Assembly (NCBI GenBank): GCA_039680785.1
Contig: JBDKSF010000014.1
Coordinates: 1-46,824 of the forward strand
Length of the DNA: 46,824 nt
Direction of reading: 5' to 3'
Source: Candidatus Cloacimonas sp.
Lineage (GTDB): Bacteria; Cloacimonadota; Cloacimonadia; Cloacimonadales; Cloacimonadaceae
In this document: piece after piece, positions 6,096 to 46,712 of the stretch
Numbering within the stretch: the stretch's first letter is position 1
Layout: each line of letters starts with the position of its first letter
Program-made: the position numbers and the translations under genes
The notes under the pieces: model-generated
The model's input: the letters and a program-made list of their open reading frames with translations, nothing else
Told to the model about the DNA's origin: nothing
Databases searched by the model: none

Positions 6096-6180
6096 CTTAG
6101 AGAAAAAAAACATAAGTATTTATTCCTATAGTCCAAACTGCATAGCGGAAGCAAGTTCCACTTTTCTCACTCACTTCCAA

Positions 6181-6252
6181 GCGTCAATCAAGTGTTAATC
6201 AACCCTTAATCAAGCGTTAATTGTTAACGCTTGATTAAGGGATGTTAAACGC
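6181..6252. repeat. Array of 11-nt units centred on an 18-bp perfect hairpin
   Basis: From 6181 the sequence reads in 11-nt units: GCGTCAATCAA, GTGTTAATCAA, CCCTTAATCAA, then GCGTTAA, a 3-nt loop, and the mirror units TTAACGC and TTGATTAAGGG. The centre forms a perfect 18-bp stem with a 3-nt loop (6203-6220 with 6224-6241). A weaker mirror unit follows at 6242-6252. There is no T-run after the stem, so a simple terminator is unlikely, although it does lie beyond the 3' end of the minus-strand guaD-like gene. The same 11-nt phasing recurs at 16285-16351 and 42342-42413. Confidence 0.8.
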
Positions 6253-6460
6253 TAAATAAATACCTTCCAGCAAGTAAGGGAAAAAACAAAAATAGGGGGA
6301 TTATATTAGGTAAGTGATTATCAAATTAGAAGAATGTAGCACTACCAAAGGTATTTAGTGTCTCCTGATTTTAGTGTTCGACAAGAAAATATTTGTTTCT
6401 GCGCCTGAGATTATCTTCCTGTTTCACCTTATTCTTTTACGGCTTTCTCCAGATTCATAC

Positions 6461-16014: not shown

Positions 16015-16284
16015 ATCTTTCTTTTTTGCAGATTTATCATCTTTGTCAAGAAAAAAAGGTTTTTTGAGTGGATAACGCCGTAAATAAAGGTTTTGAGGGT
16101 GAAGAATATTTTTTTCCCCGATTCCGGTGAACTCTTTGATAAAGGACGAATTTTCTAACCTATTCTTTGAATTTGCATTATCTTGGCTAACCTTTTGCTA
16201 TCCTATAGGTTAAATTACCAAAATAATTTTCTCTAAGGCATAATAATGATAAAACCATATTATCTCTTATTTCTGGAAGTTTAT

Positions 16285-16351
16285 TACTTCTTTATCATAC
16301 CTCAATCAAGCGTTAATAATTAAGGAGTGATTAAGGGATGATAAAGAAGTG
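16285..16351. repeat. Mirrored array of six 11-nt units in a 391-bp intergenic region
   Basis: Three 11-nt units run TACTTCTTTAT, CATACCTCAAT, CAAGCGTTAAT (16285-16317). After one base, three more run ATTAAGGAGTG, ATTAAGGGATG, ATAAAGAAGTG (16319-16351). The right units resemble the reverse complements of the left units, and the outermost 13 nt on each side pair perfectly (ACTTCTTTATCAT with ATGATAAAGAAGT). It sits between the divergent lysC and 147-aa genes, ending 54 nt before the latter. The rest of the intergenic region (16015-16284) is AT-rich with nothing else assignable. Confidence 0.75.
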
Positions 16352-16405
16352 ATTGACAGTTTCAAGCAAGGAAATATCTTGGCATCAAAATATAGGGAGG
16401 TTACA

Positions 16406-16849
16406 ATGAAAGTAACTGTAAAAGATGGAATAAAGGGATTTTCAGGCAAACTGGATGGTGCGATATATTATTATCATCCCCGCTTGAAAAGGACTTTAAT
16501 GCGGAGAGCTCCTCAAATGCCCATCCAGGAAAAAAACCTGGAATATGCTGCCATAGCCAAACAAATTAAAGATATTAACCCTTCGGAAGCGTATCGTAAC
16601 GATTTTAAAAATTTCCTGAACCTTTTGAGGGATAAGGATGATAGCGTGCGAGTGCCCTCTTGGTATTCCCTTTTTGTGAAAATGTTGTGGGCAATGCAAG
16701 CCAAATATCCCGAACAAGTGAACCTGAAAACTATTACTAAAGAGCAAATTCTGGAACAACAGTTACCCTGCCTTTCGGTAAAAACAGCGGTGGAAGACGG
16801 CTTGCTAACGAAAGTTCCTGGTTATCAATATCTAAACAAAGAGATTTGA
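16406..16849 (+). CDS. Uncharacterised 147-residue protein
   Basis: I do not recognise this protein. The frame is open from 16349, but the ATG at 16406 is chosen because AGGGAGG lies 6 nt upstream and the protein then starts naturally as MKVTVKDGIKGFSGKLDG. It is soluble-looking and basic at the N-terminus. A Gly/Tyr-rich start (SGKLDGAIYYYHPRLKRTLMR) is followed by a helical middle and a Trp/Phe-rich patch (SWYSLFVKMLWAMQ, about 94-107). The end may be a small helical domain (LKTITKEQILEQQLPCLSVK). There is no signal peptide or membrane segment. It is a single gene with the 11-nt array upstream. It may be a lineage-restricted family; I cannot propose a function. Confidence 0.8.
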   Translation: MKVTVKDGIKGFSGKLDGAIYYYHPRLKRTLMRRAPQMPIQEKNLEYAAIAKQIKDINPSEAYRNDFKNFLNLLRDKDDSVRVPSWYSLFVKMLWAMQAKYPEQVNLKTITKEQILEQQLPCLSVKTAVEDGLLTKVPGYQYLNKEI

Positions 16850-17074: not shown

Positions 17075-18139
17075 ATGAATGTCGGAGAAAAAATAAAATT
17101 GTATAGAAAGCGACTAAACATTTCTGGTAAAGAACTTGCCCAGAAATTGGATGTAACACCTGCTCTTATAACCTATTATGAACAGGGGAAAAGACAAGTT
17201 CCTTTGAAAACACTAATGCAAATATCGGAAATTATCAAGGTTCCTCTGGAATACTTTGTTACCGATAAAGAATATATTTCATATTCTGCTTATCGTGGTA
17301 AAGGTAGAATAACAAAAGAAGAAAAGGAAGAAGTTGCCTTATTCGAGGAAATAGTAGATAACTATATTAGGATTGCAAAGTTAAACGATTTTGACATCCA
17401 TTACCAAGGTCCTAATGAATATCGGGGGAAAACTATCTCCGACCAAGAAATTGGCATAATTAAAGCCCAACTGGAGGTTCCGCTTATTGTGCATTATAAT
17501 AACTTAGTTGAAGCTCTTTGGCTAAAATGGAGAATTGCTGTCTTTGCTCTTCCTTTTAGAAATACAAATTTATCAGCAATCACGATAAGAAGAGATGACA
17601 TTTATTGTGTTTTTATTAATAAAGGGCACACAATTGAAAGAAACTTTTTTTCTTTAGCTCATGAACTGGGACACATTTTGATGCATCTGGATACGGATGA
17701 ATTTATTATTTCTCGTCTTGGCTCAAGAGACCCTAAAGAAAAAGAGGCAAATGAATTTGCTTCCAGATTTACTGTCCCGTATGCTTTGCTAATGAATAAG
17801 GTAGGGAATAATTCCTTTTCGGAAACAATAACAGCAGATAAAATATGGGAATTGGCAAAGTATTTTAATGTTTCTTATGAATGCATTGTTTATAATCTGG
17901 TAAAGGCAAATATATTGAATTACGGCAAAGATGAAATAGCCAGATTGAAAGAACCGATTAAAGAATATGAATATAATATAACTATAGACGATTTCCCAGC
18001 TATTTATCGTTTACTGGTCTATCTTACCTGGAGAAAGGGAGAAATATCTATCTCCAAAGCCGGTAATTATCTATTATCCGATATACAAACTGTTAATGAT
18101 GAATTCGGTAAAATAGGCAAAATTCTGGGTAGGGTCTAA
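17075..18139 (+). CDS. XRE-family transcriptional regulator fused to ImmA/IrrE metallopeptidase
   Basis: The 354-residue protein joins an N-terminal HTH_3 DNA-binding domain (about 6-60; GKELAQKLDVTPALITYYEQGKR) to an ImmA/IrrE-type zinc protease. The catalytic HELGH is at 196-200 (SLAHELGHILMH), and a downstream acidic EANEFASRFTVP near 224-235 supplies the third metal ligand. Proteins of this type act as self-controlled repressors of mobile elements, toxin-antitoxin loci and defence genes, with the peptidase cleaving repressors after damage or invasion. It stands just before the NACHT gene (325 nt away) and may control it. A palindrome overlaps its promoter, suggesting autoregulation. Both active-site and HTH residues look intact. 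Confidence 0.88.
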   Translation: MNVGEKIKLYRKRLNISGKELAQKLDVTPALITYYEQGKRQVPLKTLMQISEIIKVPLEYFVTDKEYISYSAYRGKGRITKEEKEEVALFEEIVDNYIRIAKLNDFDIHYQGPNEYRGKTISDQEIGIIKAQLEVPLIVHYNNLVEALWLKWRIAVFALPFRNTNLSAITIRRDDIYCVFINKGHTIERNFFSLAHELGHILMHLDTDEFIISRLGSRDPKEKEANEFASRFTVPYALLMNKVGNNSFSETITADKIWELAKYFNVSYECIVYNLVKANILNYGKDEIARLKEPIKEYEYNITIDDFPAIYRLLVYLTWRKGEISISKAGNYLLSDIQTVNDEFGKIGKILGRV

Positions 18140-42188: not shown

Positions 42189-42341
42189 AATATCCTCTTT
42201 CGGATTTTTTTCTTTTTTTCCAACAAAATAGGATAAGCTATTTAGTCAAATACTTTTTTTAGCCACGGAGGGGGATGAAAAATGGATTGGAGAGATATCG
42301 CCAATTGCCCATAAGCCGCTTACTCGATGGTTTAGTAATGC

Positions 42342-42413
42342 AGTAACATTTAAGTAACACTTCTGTAACGAGACAAGGTCAGTGTAAGAGAAGTGTTACG
42401 ATAGTGTAAGATA
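42342..42413. repeat. Mirrored array of six 11-nt units between dnaN and the dikinase-like gene
   Basis: AGTAACATTTA, AGTAACACTTC and TGTAACGAGAC (42342-42374) are followed after 6 nt by AGTGTAAGAGA, AGTGTTACGAT and AGTGTAAGATA (42381-42413). The central halves include a perfect 11-nt dyad GTAACACTTCT / AGAAGTGTTAC (42354-42364 with 42389-42399). The rest of the 456-bp region (42189-42644) shows no gene, no clear DnaA boxes and no other repeat that I can support. Confidence 0.75.
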
Positions 42414-42644
42414 AGCTTTCATCTGCCAATAAGTTATATACTGTCTATCGGTAATGGGCGAAATTTAAGTGTAATTATCTGCGCCAGATAATGTTGGAGG
42501 AAAGTCATTGGGTTATGGAGGGAAACTTCTCCGCGAGGCAGAAAGCTAATATCTTGAGCGATAAACTCCTTGACAGAAATCTGCCCCAATATATTAAAGA
42601 AAAAGCATTGTTATGATTTTGCAATAAAATATGAGGTTTAGGTC

Positions 42645-45600
42645 TTGGAAACCCTTAAATCAAAAGCATTGGCAGAAAATCTTGCAGTTACCAAAGTATC
42701 CGAAATAGAGCTTGATGAACAGGCAAAATGGTTACTTTTCTTAACTGAAGGTAATTATGGCATTTATCAGCGTGCCCAAATTTTTTTGGAAGAGCTGTAT
42801 CATCCCTATACAAATCCTGAAGCAGTTGCTACGCTTATCCGGCAAAGTATTTTGGGGGACTTGTGGTTTTATGTGCAATTTCCTGATAGAGAAAAGACCT
42901 TAACCATAATAGGCAATTTATATATTTTGGCTGCTAAAAAATGCAGTAAGCCACTGCAAGAAAAAAGAATAATAATAGAATATCTGGATTTTATTTCTGC
43001 TTTGTGTGAAAAAGAGGACATCCCAGCCAGCGTATATGCCTTTTTATTGAAGGAACTGATTAATTGGCAAAGACGCAGCAGAGAAAGATTCATACCCATA
43101 AACGGCGTTTGTCGTAAATGTTTAACTCGTTTAGTACAAGTGTATGATGGCAATGCTGAATGTTTTGTTTTGCTGAAAGACCTATTGAAAGCGGGTTTGG
43201 AATTCTGGCAACAAACCACGGACATTGAAAATTGGGCACATAAAATGGGGATTGAGAACGCAAACGAAAGAGAAAAGCTCTCTGCTAAAATAGGCGCTGA
43301 ATTTTACAGTAAATGGCTGAAAGAGCTGGAAAACAGACAGACCTTTGCCTCTCTGAAAGATATTCCCGCTTATTCTGACATAGCTGTTTCAATGCGGGAA
43401 GCGATATGTGAATTTAAAACATTAACTATGCGCATCCAATACATTTTTTACTTATTGGGTTTACCCGGGATGGAGGAACTGAAAGATCATTTGCTGTGGG
43501 ACTTGAATCGCCAATTATCCGATTTGGAAAACGAACTGAGTGAAGAAGAAGTTCCCCTGATGCTAAATTCCATCTTTGAGACCTTGTATGAATTTAAGAA
43601 AACTCGTCTTAACATTGTGCTGGATTGTATTTTAACTATTGGTAAAACAGTTCTTTCACATAACAATAATAAACACTGTCAACACTTGCTACCCAAAATT
43701 ATGGAATTGGAATTCACTCCGCCCGGGAAAATCAAGATTGATAATGATTGGCAGCTGGAAGTGGATAAAAACCATATAAAACATTTGCGAATGCTGCTGG
43801 AATTAATCGCCATTGATCCGCTGAAGTGCAAAGACCTGTTGGCATATTTAATTATCAGCATAAGTCGCGAAGGGATTTTTATATCCGATACGGACCTATT
43901 TCAAAAAGATGTTTCCGCCTTTTTGAATTCTAATTTCAAACCTGTGGTCGTGCAAACCAAGCACTTGCTGAAAATGTTTCCCGTTTTTTTCAATGAAATT
44001 GGAGCGGAAGGTGAAATAAGGGATATCAGCACTTCTCTGGATGAAATATGCCATAGAAAAGACCTCTTATTGCATTTTCTGCGCAAACAGATTCATACCG
44101 AAAGCAATAATATGCACCTAATGCTGATAAACAAGATATTGCGCTATTGGACAAATCTTGATTATAATGAGCTGAAAGGAATGGTTCCCGAAGATGTGAT
44201 GATGTATATTATGCTTCCGGATGATCTTACTAAAAAGCAAAACAGCGCCGTGAATGAATTTTTAAGCAAAAATAATCTTAGTCCGGATGAGTTGCTTTCC
44301 CTCTCTTGGCAAAGAGTGAGTAAATTATTTGAAACTGAACCGGAGGACTTTTCTTTAACCCGGCTGAAGCTGTTATGCTATTCACATTTTTTGCTGAAGG
44401 ATAAATATAACCTTGATCCTTATGATATCGTTAAATTTCTTACGCGCTACAATTGGTTCAATGCTCACGAACAAACCCGACTTGCCAACAGCTTTTTAAG
44501 AAAGGACTATGACAATTCTATCAGGCAATTGCTTTCTTACATTGGAAAAATGAATGCGGTGATTTTGGATCCCAAAGCCACTACTGCCTGGGAAAACATA
44601 TATTACAAAAGACACATTGCCGCTGGCATTCCTTCTATGTATGGAATGTATCGCGAACCCAAACTGGAAGCAATGGGAATGATTTTCAGAATAGAAAATG
44701 TAGTGAAACGACTCTTTGAACGCGATGTCCAACAATTGAATCTGAACTATATTACGGGAAAAACTTTACGCCGCATTATTCGTATTCTGGAACTTTACGA
44801 TTATGCAATGAAACAAATAATGGTTACGAATGATGCTTACGGTTCGGCTTTGGATATGTTGAAATCGGCTAAATATTTAAGTAACCTTTCCATAGATCAA
44901 TATCTTGATATTTTTAAGCTGCTGAAAGATGGCGTGGTGGAAATCATCAACGAATACTATTATAGATTTTATGAAACTCAACTGCGCCAGATTGGTTCGC
45001 ACATAGCGGATAAAAGTAAACGCGGAAATACGGAATTGGATATTTTTGCGGAGGAATTTTACCGCAACCTGCTTTCCAAATCATTTTTGGTGCAAGGTCT
45101 GGACAATTTTATCACGCGGATTCTTGAGTCCCTATCCGAAATGAAGTCCCTCTTTAAGCCCGCAGATATACCCAAGGTGATTAGTTATGATCCGGATAAT
45201 CTCTTTTTTCATCTGAATAAAAAGAACTCTCGCATTGAAAATCAAGTTTTGTTGGGGTCTAAGGCATATTTTCTGAAAAGGATGTTTCAATACGAATTTC
45301 CCATTCCTCCCGGTTGTGTTATTACTACTGATCTTTTTCGCCATAGAGAAATAATAAATACTCATCCTGATATTTCCAACGAACTGGATGCTCTGATAAT
45401 GCAAAATTTAAACATCCTGGAGAAAAATACGGGATTGGTTTTGGGAGATCCTGACAAGCCATTGCTGTTATCTGTGCGTTCCGGTGCTCCAATGAGTTTG
45501 CCGGGAGCAATGAATACATTTTTGAATATTGGCTTAAGCGACGATGTAACGGTTAAACTATCCAAAAAATATAATTACGGATGGACTGCCTGGGATTGCT

Positions 45601-46712
45601 ATAGACGCCTAATTCAAAGTTGGGGAATGGCTTATGGCATTCCTCGCGATGAATTCGATGCTGTAATGATAAATTATAAAAAGCGATATCAGGTTGAACT
45701 AAAAACACAATTTTCCGATGCTCAAATGCAGGATATGGTTCAGGACTATAAAAAAGTGCTGGAAATACATAATATTGAACTGGAACAAAGACCTTTTATG
45801 CAACTTTACAAAGCAATTTCCAATGTTTTGGATAGCTGGAATACAGACAGAGCTCGCTTATATCGTCAAAAACTGCATATTGCCGACGAATGGGGCACTG
45901 CTGTCATCATTCAAAAAATGGTTTTGGGCAATATCTCGCTAAAATCAGGAACCGGAGTTCTATTTACTTATGCCGATTTTAATGAGGAAGGGGGAATCTG
46001 TTTGAATGGTGATTTTACCCTCTGCAGCCAAGGAGAAGATGTTGTAGCTGGTTTAGTGCATACTTTGCCCATTTCGGAAATGCAAAGATTACATAGTCAG
46101 ACAGTGGTGGAAAGCTCTTTGGAAAACACTTTTCCTGATATTTACAATGCTCTGTTGCGCTACGCAAAACAGCTGATTGAAGATAAAAATTATCCGCATC
46201 AGGAAATGGAATTCACTTTTGAAGGACCATCTCCGGATCAGTTATATATATTGCAAACTCGCGAACAGATAATTCAAAAAGCCCCTGACTACAATGTATT
46301 TGGCTCAATAAAAGGAGAACAGGAAATACTTGCCTACGGAATTGGGATTGGGAAAGGCGCGGTTAATGGAATAATCGTTTTTGACAAGGAAGATATAGAA
46401 ACATTTTCAGGAAAAGGGGAATCCCTAATTTTGGTGCGTCCTGATACTGTGCCGGATGATTTGGAGCTGCTTTTTGAATGTCAGGGATTGTTAACTTCCC
46501 GGGGAGGTGTAACTTCTCATGCAGCAGTTACAGCTACGCGTTTAGGACTTATCGGAGTGGTAAATTGCAGAGAATTGGTGGTTTCTGAAACTGATTCTAA
46601 CTGTAAAATAGGGGACACCTGTTTGAAAGCAGGCGATAAAATAGCTCTGGATGCTATCAGCGGAGCTATTTACAAAGGACATTATCCTCTGGTTAGCGTG
46701 CATTGCTTATAA
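42645..46712 (+). CDS. PEP synthase/PPDK-like dikinase lacking the PEP/pyruvate barrel, with large novel N-terminus
   Basis: Translation probably starts at TTG 42645 behind GAGG; an ATG at 42631 opens only a short out-of-frame ORF. The first 860 of 1355 residues are helical and match nothing I recognise. A dikinase ATP-grasp region follows, with QVLLGSKAYFLKRM near 867 and SVRSGAPMSLPGAMNTFLNIG near 942-962 (nucleotide binding). The swivelling phosphohistidine domain has GGVTSHAAV near 1283-1291, where the His is the phosphate carrier. Real PPDK and PEP synthase then continue into a large TIM barrel that binds PEP or pyruvate, but this protein ends about 65 residues after the histidine. The phosphate acceptor is therefore unknown, and the gene stands immediately before gap. 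Confidence 0.85.
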   Translation: METLKSKALAENLAVTKVSEIELDEQAKWLLFLTEGNYGIYQRAQIFLEELYHPYTNPEAVATLIRQSILGDLWFYVQFPDREKTLTIIGNLYILAAKKCSKPLQEKRIIIEYLDFISALCEKEDIPASVYAFLLKELINWQRRSRERFIPINGVCRKCLTRLVQVYDGNAECFVLLKDLLKAGLEFWQQTTDIENWAHKMGIENANEREKLSAKIGAEFYSKWLKELENRQTFASLKDIPAYSDIAVSMREAICEFKTLTMRIQYIFYLLGLPGMEELKDHLLWDLNRQLSDLENELSEEEVPLMLNSIFETLYEFKKTRLNIVLDCILTIGKTVLSHNNNKHCQHLLPKIMELEFTPPGKIKIDNDWQLEVDKNHIKHLRMLLELIAIDPLKCKDLLAYLIISISREGIFISDTDLFQKDVSAFLNSNFKPVVVQTKHLLKMFPVFFNEIGAEGEIRDISTSLDEICHRKDLLLHFLRKQIHTESNNMHLMLINKILRYWTNLDYNELKGMVPEDVMMYIMLPDDLTKKQNSAVNEFLSKNNLSPDELLSLSWQRVSKLFETEPEDFSLTRLKLLCYSHFLLKDKYNLDPYDIVKFLTRYNWFNAHEQTRLANSFLRKDYDNSIRQLLSYIGKMNAVILDPKATTAWENIYYKRHIAAGIPSMYGMYREPKLEAMGMIFRIENVVKRLFERDVQQLNLNYITGKTLRRIIRILELYDYAMKQIMVTNDAYGSALDMLKSAKYLSNLSIDQYLDIFKLLKDGVVEIINEYYYRFYETQLRQIGSHIADKSKRGNTELDIFAEEFYRNLLSKSFLVQGLDNFITRILESLSEMKSLFKPADIPKVISYDPDNLFFHLNKKNSRIENQVLLGSKAYFLKRMFQYEFPIPPGCVITTDLFRHREIINTHPDISNELDALIMQNLNILEKNTGLVLGDPDKPLLLSVRSGAPMSLPGAMNTFLNIGLSDDVTVKLSKKYNYGWTAWDCYRRLIQSWGMAYGIPRDEFDAVMINYKKRYQVELKTQFSDAQMQDMVQDYKKVLEIHNIELEQRPFMQLYKAISNVLDSWNTDRARLYRQKLHIADEWGTAVIIQKMVLGNISLKSGTGVLFTYADFNEEGGICLNGDFTLCSQGEDVVAGLVHTLPISEMQRLHSQTVVESSLENTFPDIYNALLRYAKQLIEDKNYPHQEMEFTFEGPSPDQLYILQTREQIIQKAPDYNVFGSIKGEQEILAYGIGIGKGAVNGIIVFDKEDIETFSGKGESLILVRPDTVPDDLELLFECQGLLTSRGGVTSHAAVTATRLGLIGVVNCRELVVSETDSNCKIGDTCLKAGDKIALDAISGAIYKGHYPLVSVHCL

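Follow-up and report, generated by a model that had tools for sequence, protein, structure and literature searches.

Dispersed mirror-image arrays of 11-nt units in Cloacimonas genomes and their association with a family of small basic proteins

The palindrome at 6181-6252 of the stretch analysed here (the window, 46,824 nt) belongs to a set of dispersed arrays built from mirrored 11-nt units. These arrays occur in several types and are associated with the genes of a family of small basic proteins, the unit sequence differing from paralog to paralog. It appears rather probable from sequence comparison that they are the cognate sites of these proteins, with one specificity per paralog, autoregulation of the paralog genes and a dispersal resembling that of REP/RAYT systems. 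The gene located beside the array at 16285, which was left unremarked in the initial annotation, gives the arrays their meaning. The window is contig C14 of a fragmented genome of 2.07 Mb (122 contigs), about a quarter of which (520 kb) was read directly, model searches being added. Its features are listed in Table 1.

Table 1. Array elements and associated features of the window
Feature	Position	Strand	Support
Type-A element, whole, imperfect palindrome of ~110 bp	6157..6279	.	Type-A model R2 match, 109.8 bits; alignment of 57 copies
Inner 11-nt phased mirror array of the first type-A element	6181-6252		Inverted repeat 6191-6220/6224-6253, 87 % complementary
Perfect 18-bp inverted repeat with 3-nt centre (CCCTTAATCAAGCGTTAA TTG TTAACGCTTGATTAAGGG)	6203..6241	.	
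Second type-A element, directly upstream of the cognate gene	16259..16373	.	R2 match, 68.9 bits
TTGACA, candidate -35 box within the outermost phased unit of the array	16353..16358	+	Geometry across 16 species
Gene for a 147-aa basic protein, type-A member of the array-paired family	16406..16849	+	
Type-B element (GTAAC units)	42317..42421	.	Type-B model R3 match, 74.6 bits

At 6181-6252, units CGTCAATCAAG, TGTTAATCAAC, CCTTAATCAAG and CGTTAATTGTT, spaced by 11 nt, lead into the 18-bp inverted repeat, and 11 nt was the strongest local period there as well as in the arrays at 16285 and 42342 (27, 24 and 23 of 40, respectively). The initial description of this locus as four 11-nt units with a perfect 18-bp stem and a 3-nt loop was borne out by sequence and period analysis. 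The array is real, but the extent first given to it was too small, as the full element covers about 110 bp and includes inverted outer ends (CTTCCTTRCTT/AAGYAAGGAAG in the aligned copies). Elements of type Cac1 were of similar size, and aligned copies (about 105-110 bp) displayed sharp ends and unrelated flanks. From the centre outward, similar 11-mers follow one another along each arm, the units of the two mirrored arms facing outward; some types displayed centres of 8-25 nt. The arms of the second type-A element (16283-16317 and 16319-16353) form an inverted repeat with 83 % complementarity. The other two arrays of the window were originally thought to carry units different from those at 6181. 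This held for 42342-42413, which is of type B, but not for 16285-16351, which is of type A like the first (E=4.5e-19). The type-B element sits between the divergent genes dnaN and a large gene with PEP-utilising domains, and its paired paralog lies elsewhere in the same genome (C37:2188-2631). The large gene (42645-46712) encodes a 1355-aa protein whose PPDK-type ATP-binding and PEP-utiliser domains are restricted to the C-terminal third, the first ~860 residues being without family match.

The array at 6181-6252 is not a chance product. Within the 520 kb read directly, 10 of the 11 strongest close inverted repeats had a best internal period of 11; under looser limits this was the case for 16 out of 32, versus 0 out of 8 in a Markov null. 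Intergenic period-11 stretches numbered 18 versus 1.7 in shuffled sequence for the genome of the window, 19 versus 1.3 for G008, 9 versus 0 for G016 and 7 versus 0 for G004. The comparison with shuffled intergenic sequence, proposed at the outset, thus gave an excess of about tenfold in the first two genomes. Period 11 was nearly the sole period in excess in the intergenic DNA of G016 and G004, and all 48 arrays confidently detected in the sampled genomes lay outside long reading frames. Intergenic tandem repeats of 7, 8 and 9 nt, seldom mirrored, were also strongly in excess in the genome of the window and in G008 (e.g. GGGTTAAC; L011:100-260, L053, L055, L259 and others).

Several array types were distinguished according to unit sequence. 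The genome of the window displayed types A (TTGATTAAGGG), B (GTTACGGAAGT), C (GGAGGAGTGGA) and D (GGTTACGGGAT), while types A, B and C were accompanied in G008 by Cac1 (AATGGGTAAGC) and Cac2 (ATATGGGAATG), the latter also being present in G001. Additional unit sequences were encountered in G004, in G016 and at single loci of other genera. As estimated with sequence-only models (site numbers being half of the match counts, since a palindrome matches on both strands), type A occurred in all nine genomes of the genus Cloacimonas searched, with ~10 sites in the genome of the window and ~20 in G001; type B displayed ~59 sites in the genome of the window and ~49 in G008; and Cac1 displayed ~44 sites in G008 and none in the genome of the window. 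Phasing without conservation of sequence, as first suspected from the window, was therefore found on a larger scale, with many unrelated units in several genera sharing one 11-nt mirrored design. A k-mer search for an outer motif independent of type in the genome of the window retrieved only AAGCAAGG as enriched (5.6-fold).

The proteins encoded next to the arrays are basic (median pI of the family 9.6). Each of the 41 genomes searched within the bacterial family contained at least one member; numbers ranged from two to 28 per genome within the genus, with seven members in the genome of the window, nine in G008 and 27-28 in G004. Across the phylum, 62 out of 125 genomes displayed a match, 12 of them outside the bacterial family and with weaker matches. 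No Pfam, NCBIfam or PHROG family matched the 147-aa protein at a meaningful E-value, no relative with solved structure was retrieved from the PDB by sequence or profile, no relative was found in viral contigs, phages and plasmids, and these family and structure searches recognised no nuclease or transposase domain. A single-sequence AlphaFold prediction was of low confidence (pLDDT 46) and gave no usable fold. Downstream of the array-paired gene, the window carries a gene (17075-18139) with HTH and IrrE-like peptidase parts, which resembles regulators of the phage-repressor type.

Three type-A sites in three species were located just upstream of orthologs of gene 16406-16849, and the array occupied an equivalent position in 15 species besides that of the window. 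More generally, an 11-nt mirror array was present upstream of 37 out of 63 family members compared to 32 out of 315 control genes (10 %; p=4.6e-16), where arrays were scored by threshold within 400 bp upstream and controls had an upstream gap of at least 150 bp. By this criterion the remaining 26 members displayed no array, among them the entire subfamily with motif LALPGxxGNMDD, as seen in three genomes (L288 in G008, L328 in G001 and L041 in the genome of the window). Over 44 pairs, arrays were more alike the more similar the proteins were (rho 0.46; 0 of 2000 permutations), and 0 of 2000 permutations was again obtained after omission of pairs above 60 % protein identity. Arrays were nearly identical at protein identities above 60 %, partly similar at 50-60 % and at background level below 50 %. 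Since the association at the gene itself could be in part a product of locus inheritance, two tests in trans were carried out.

Both trans tests relied on nine genomes that share history, orthology being assigned by identity. An ortholog of the Cac1-paired paralog (at least 58 % identity) was present only in G008, G004, G005 and G007, and these four displayed 88, 141, 44 and 26 Cac1-model matches (both strands), respectively, compared to 0, 0, 1, 3 and 2 in the five genomes lacking it. For type B, where the prediction was recorded beforehand, the two genomes with an ortholog displayed 118 and 98 matches; 63 weaker matches were found in G004, which has a relative of 61 % identity, and 0-16 in the other six genomes. 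In addition, all 16 dispersed arrays confidently detected in the genome of the window matched the array type upstream of a paralog of its own (15 with scores of at least 30 and one with 27, shuffled sequence giving 17-20). Exceptions were the type-A arrays of G005 and G007, where the type-A gene has no close ortholog, and about eight type-B sites in G001, which has no type-B ortholog. Among the part of the paralogs examined, no cognate was found for the C-type arrays of G008 and for one type of G004. Genome G001 displayed no intact type-A gene and carried two pseudogene remnants beside arrays. At both loci (L208 and L209, on C1 and C28) a type-A array precedes a C-terminal piece of the gene paired with it, which would fit a joint duplication of the two with later decay of the gene.

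The promoter of the type-A gene displayed a fixed geometry. A TTGAC sequence was located 34.5-35 nt from the array centre in 13 out of 16 species, as would be expected of an autoregulated protein whose site overlaps its own promoter, and 54-57 nt from the ATG in 14 out of 16. TTGAC probably serves at once as -35 box of the gene and as outermost array unit, which points to autoregulation of type-A genes. Arrays of other types were found at a greater distance from the start codon, about 70-310 nt upstream of it. In promoters of non-type-A members (L037, L041, L283-L289), two TTTTGTCACC repeats were observed about two turns apart, the second continuing into CCCCTATATATATAG; this motif is possibly a common operator or an unusual promoter.

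According to the preferred reading, a lineage-specific family of basic proteins of about 147 aa would use the arrays as sites on double-stranded DNA. Each 11-bp unit would likely receive one protein contact, so that the copies would be aligned along a single helix face, with two rows of this kind opposed across the array centre. Every paralog would read its own unit sequence and keep one array copy in the promoter region of its own gene. For the type-A gene, whose last unit would hold the -35 box, the bound protein should control its own gene. The proteins may also drive or maintain the dispersed copies.

An alternative would be a neutral rule such as slippage or template switching, or a helically phased curvature to which gyrase or nucleoid proteins bind, in either case with no partner of its own. 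Units often displaying one G/C cluster per turn and the excess of 7-9-nt tandem repeats in two genomes would agree with such an origin, but it would leave unexplained the matching of types to paralogs, the copy numbers that track gene presence and the fixed promoter geometry, and is hardly credible. Of the three causes proposed in the initial annotation, replication slippage leaves the fixed value of 11, the mirroring and the link of array type to paralog without explanation, while an iteron-like binding array provides the best fit. A mobile short element is supported as far as dispersal goes, by tens of dispersed copies with sharp ends and unrelated flanks, mobility itself being something that we infer.

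Mobility is central to a different reading, in which arrays and proteins form selfish pairs of repeat and mobiliser, a family protein or a complex recruited by it copying the cognate arrays into new intergenic sites, as has been proposed of RAYT transposases for REPs, and the promoter copy acting only as master copy. Copy numbers dependent on the cognate gene, the coexistence of several types per genome, the size, sharp ends and unrelated flanks of the elements, the scarcity of sites common to different species (few for type A), the pseudogene remnants found next to arrays in G001 and the resemblance to REP/RAYT systems are all in its favour. It is nevertheless rather unlikely, as the protein displays no recognised nuclease or transposase domain and no clear target site duplication was detected (a weak signal for 16 copies of G004, best direct repeat 0.47 versus a null range of 0.33-0.44). 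Furthermore, a search for empty sites with joined flanks gave no true match (the single match lay within the same locus), hairpin pairing was not copy-specific, and the constancy of the promoter geometry across many genera suggests host use.

The arrays could also be operators of tens of target genes, each protein being a transcription factor with a classical regulon. Besides the fixed -35 geometry at the type-A gene, this would suit the arrays located between divergent genes (14/56) and those upstream of dnaN in several genera. However, convergent gaps (8/32) held arrays equally often, array-bearing gaps were usually long (median 502 bp) and an orthologous gap may carry a different type in another species, as was found for the dnaN, guanine deaminase and aspartate kinase gaps; we regard this possibility as improbable. 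These three gaps were too diverged between species to be aligned. Upstream of aspartate kinase in G004 (L130:2720-2900), tandem CCCCCTCTGTCATACCAGCRAA repeats with an inverted repeat at their end were observed. Because dispersed arrays were found in every gene context, convergent gaps among them, and few type-A sites recur from species to species, an ordinary regulon is not indicated. In the preferred reading, the genome-wide copies would either accompany the gene as REP-like passengers or serve to structure the chromosome.

Arms of the same copy were no more complementary than arms taken from different copies (0.717 versus 0.724 for type A, within genomes; 0.683 versus 0.725 for Cac1), and a copy-shuffle test on types A, B and Cac1 revealed no excess of arm pairing within copies. 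The stem itself is thus not what is kept; each arm separately conforms to the type consensus, as rows of protein sites along a DNA duplex would be expected to do. The unit length agrees with the roughly 11 bp per turn of A-form RNA, and the inverted repeats are long and near-perfect, which would suit hairpins of RNA or single-stranded DNA (terminators, structured RNAs or cruciforms). Such hairpins are highly improbable given the copy-shuffle result, the 8-25-nt centres of some types, the arrays in divergent gaps and the lack of any Rfam match in the window at gathering thresholds; a hairpin or RNA structure was discarded on the first and last of these grounds.

At the genome level, the array system parallels REP/RAYT systems without being a member. 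In the latter, the abundance of a repeat class depends on its cognate RAYT and deviations follow RAYT loss (PMC3686654). Similarly, the arrays are intergenic palindromic repeats in tens of copies, with several classes per genome and each class beside its cognate gene, and their abundance depends on that gene, with the exceptions of type A in G005 and G007 and of the few type-B sites in G001, and outlives its loss. In contrast to REP/RAYT hairpins of 20-40 nt with a GTAG-type tag, the arrays are ~110 bp long, consist of phased 11-nt units and have arms that do not co-vary, a type-A copy is built into a promoter, and the partner protein lacks a recognisable Y1/HUH domain. A RAYT was rejected as array partner: the sole Y1_Tnp gene in the genome of the window, RAYT-like and located elsewhere (L111, C77:14386-16828), is flanked by GC-rich palindromic repeats of its own. 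Similar repeats, of the GTAGCCGGAGGACGC type, were found elsewhere in that genome (e.g. L010, L037); gene and repeats represent a separate, ordinary REP system.

Centromeres of the ParR/parC type offer another comparison. ParR of plasmid R1 needs at least two 11-bp repeats, and pairs of protein and repeat are family-specific (PMC9426499). Both systems display short direct repeats whose length is close to a helical turn and which, in parC, precede the operon, but the arrays have mirrored arms, tens of dispersed chromosomal copies and many paralogs per genome, and the 147-aa protein matched neither ParR nor any ribbon-helix-helix model. Like MITEs (e.g. enterobacterial RU elements), the arrays are short, non-coding, intergenic and dispersed in many copies with inverted repeats; unlike them, they display an 11-nt internal periodicity, no parent transposon was seen, no clear target site duplication was detected in the 16 copies of G004 and they are tied to a small non-transposase gene. 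Operators of the PhoB/OmpR type consist of direct repeats, such as the 11-bp pho box, next to the -35 region. The arrays share the 11-bp units beside a -35 region, but have mirrored arms and paralog-specific sequences, and the protein family is unrelated.

The literature searched contained nothing on Cloacimonas repeats. Within this literature and the collections searched, neither protein nor array fits a known family; the mechanism is one that we infer. More tentatively, though quite possibly, the proteins may form a new superfamily that reads DNA in 11-bp steps, a unit for every helical turn, and has radiated in Cloacimonadota into tens of autoregulated, mutually distinct specificities coexisting in one cell, every one with a genome-wide set of mirrored arrays of its own. 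Such a system could organise the chromosome or be a new kind of mobile repeat.

An odd palindrome has thereby become a testable system, whose unannotated proteins form a family with members in all searched genomes of one bacterial family. It provides a natural series of protein/DNA-site pairs with equal spacing and differing sequence. If the proteins bind as proposed, it would contain many examples of a recognition code changing while spacing stays fixed, and would add to REP/RAYT a second, independent example in which a cognate gene governs intergenic repeats across a genome. It may also provide a function for unannotated genes and intergenic DNA of Cloacimonadota, which are abundant in anaerobic digesters.
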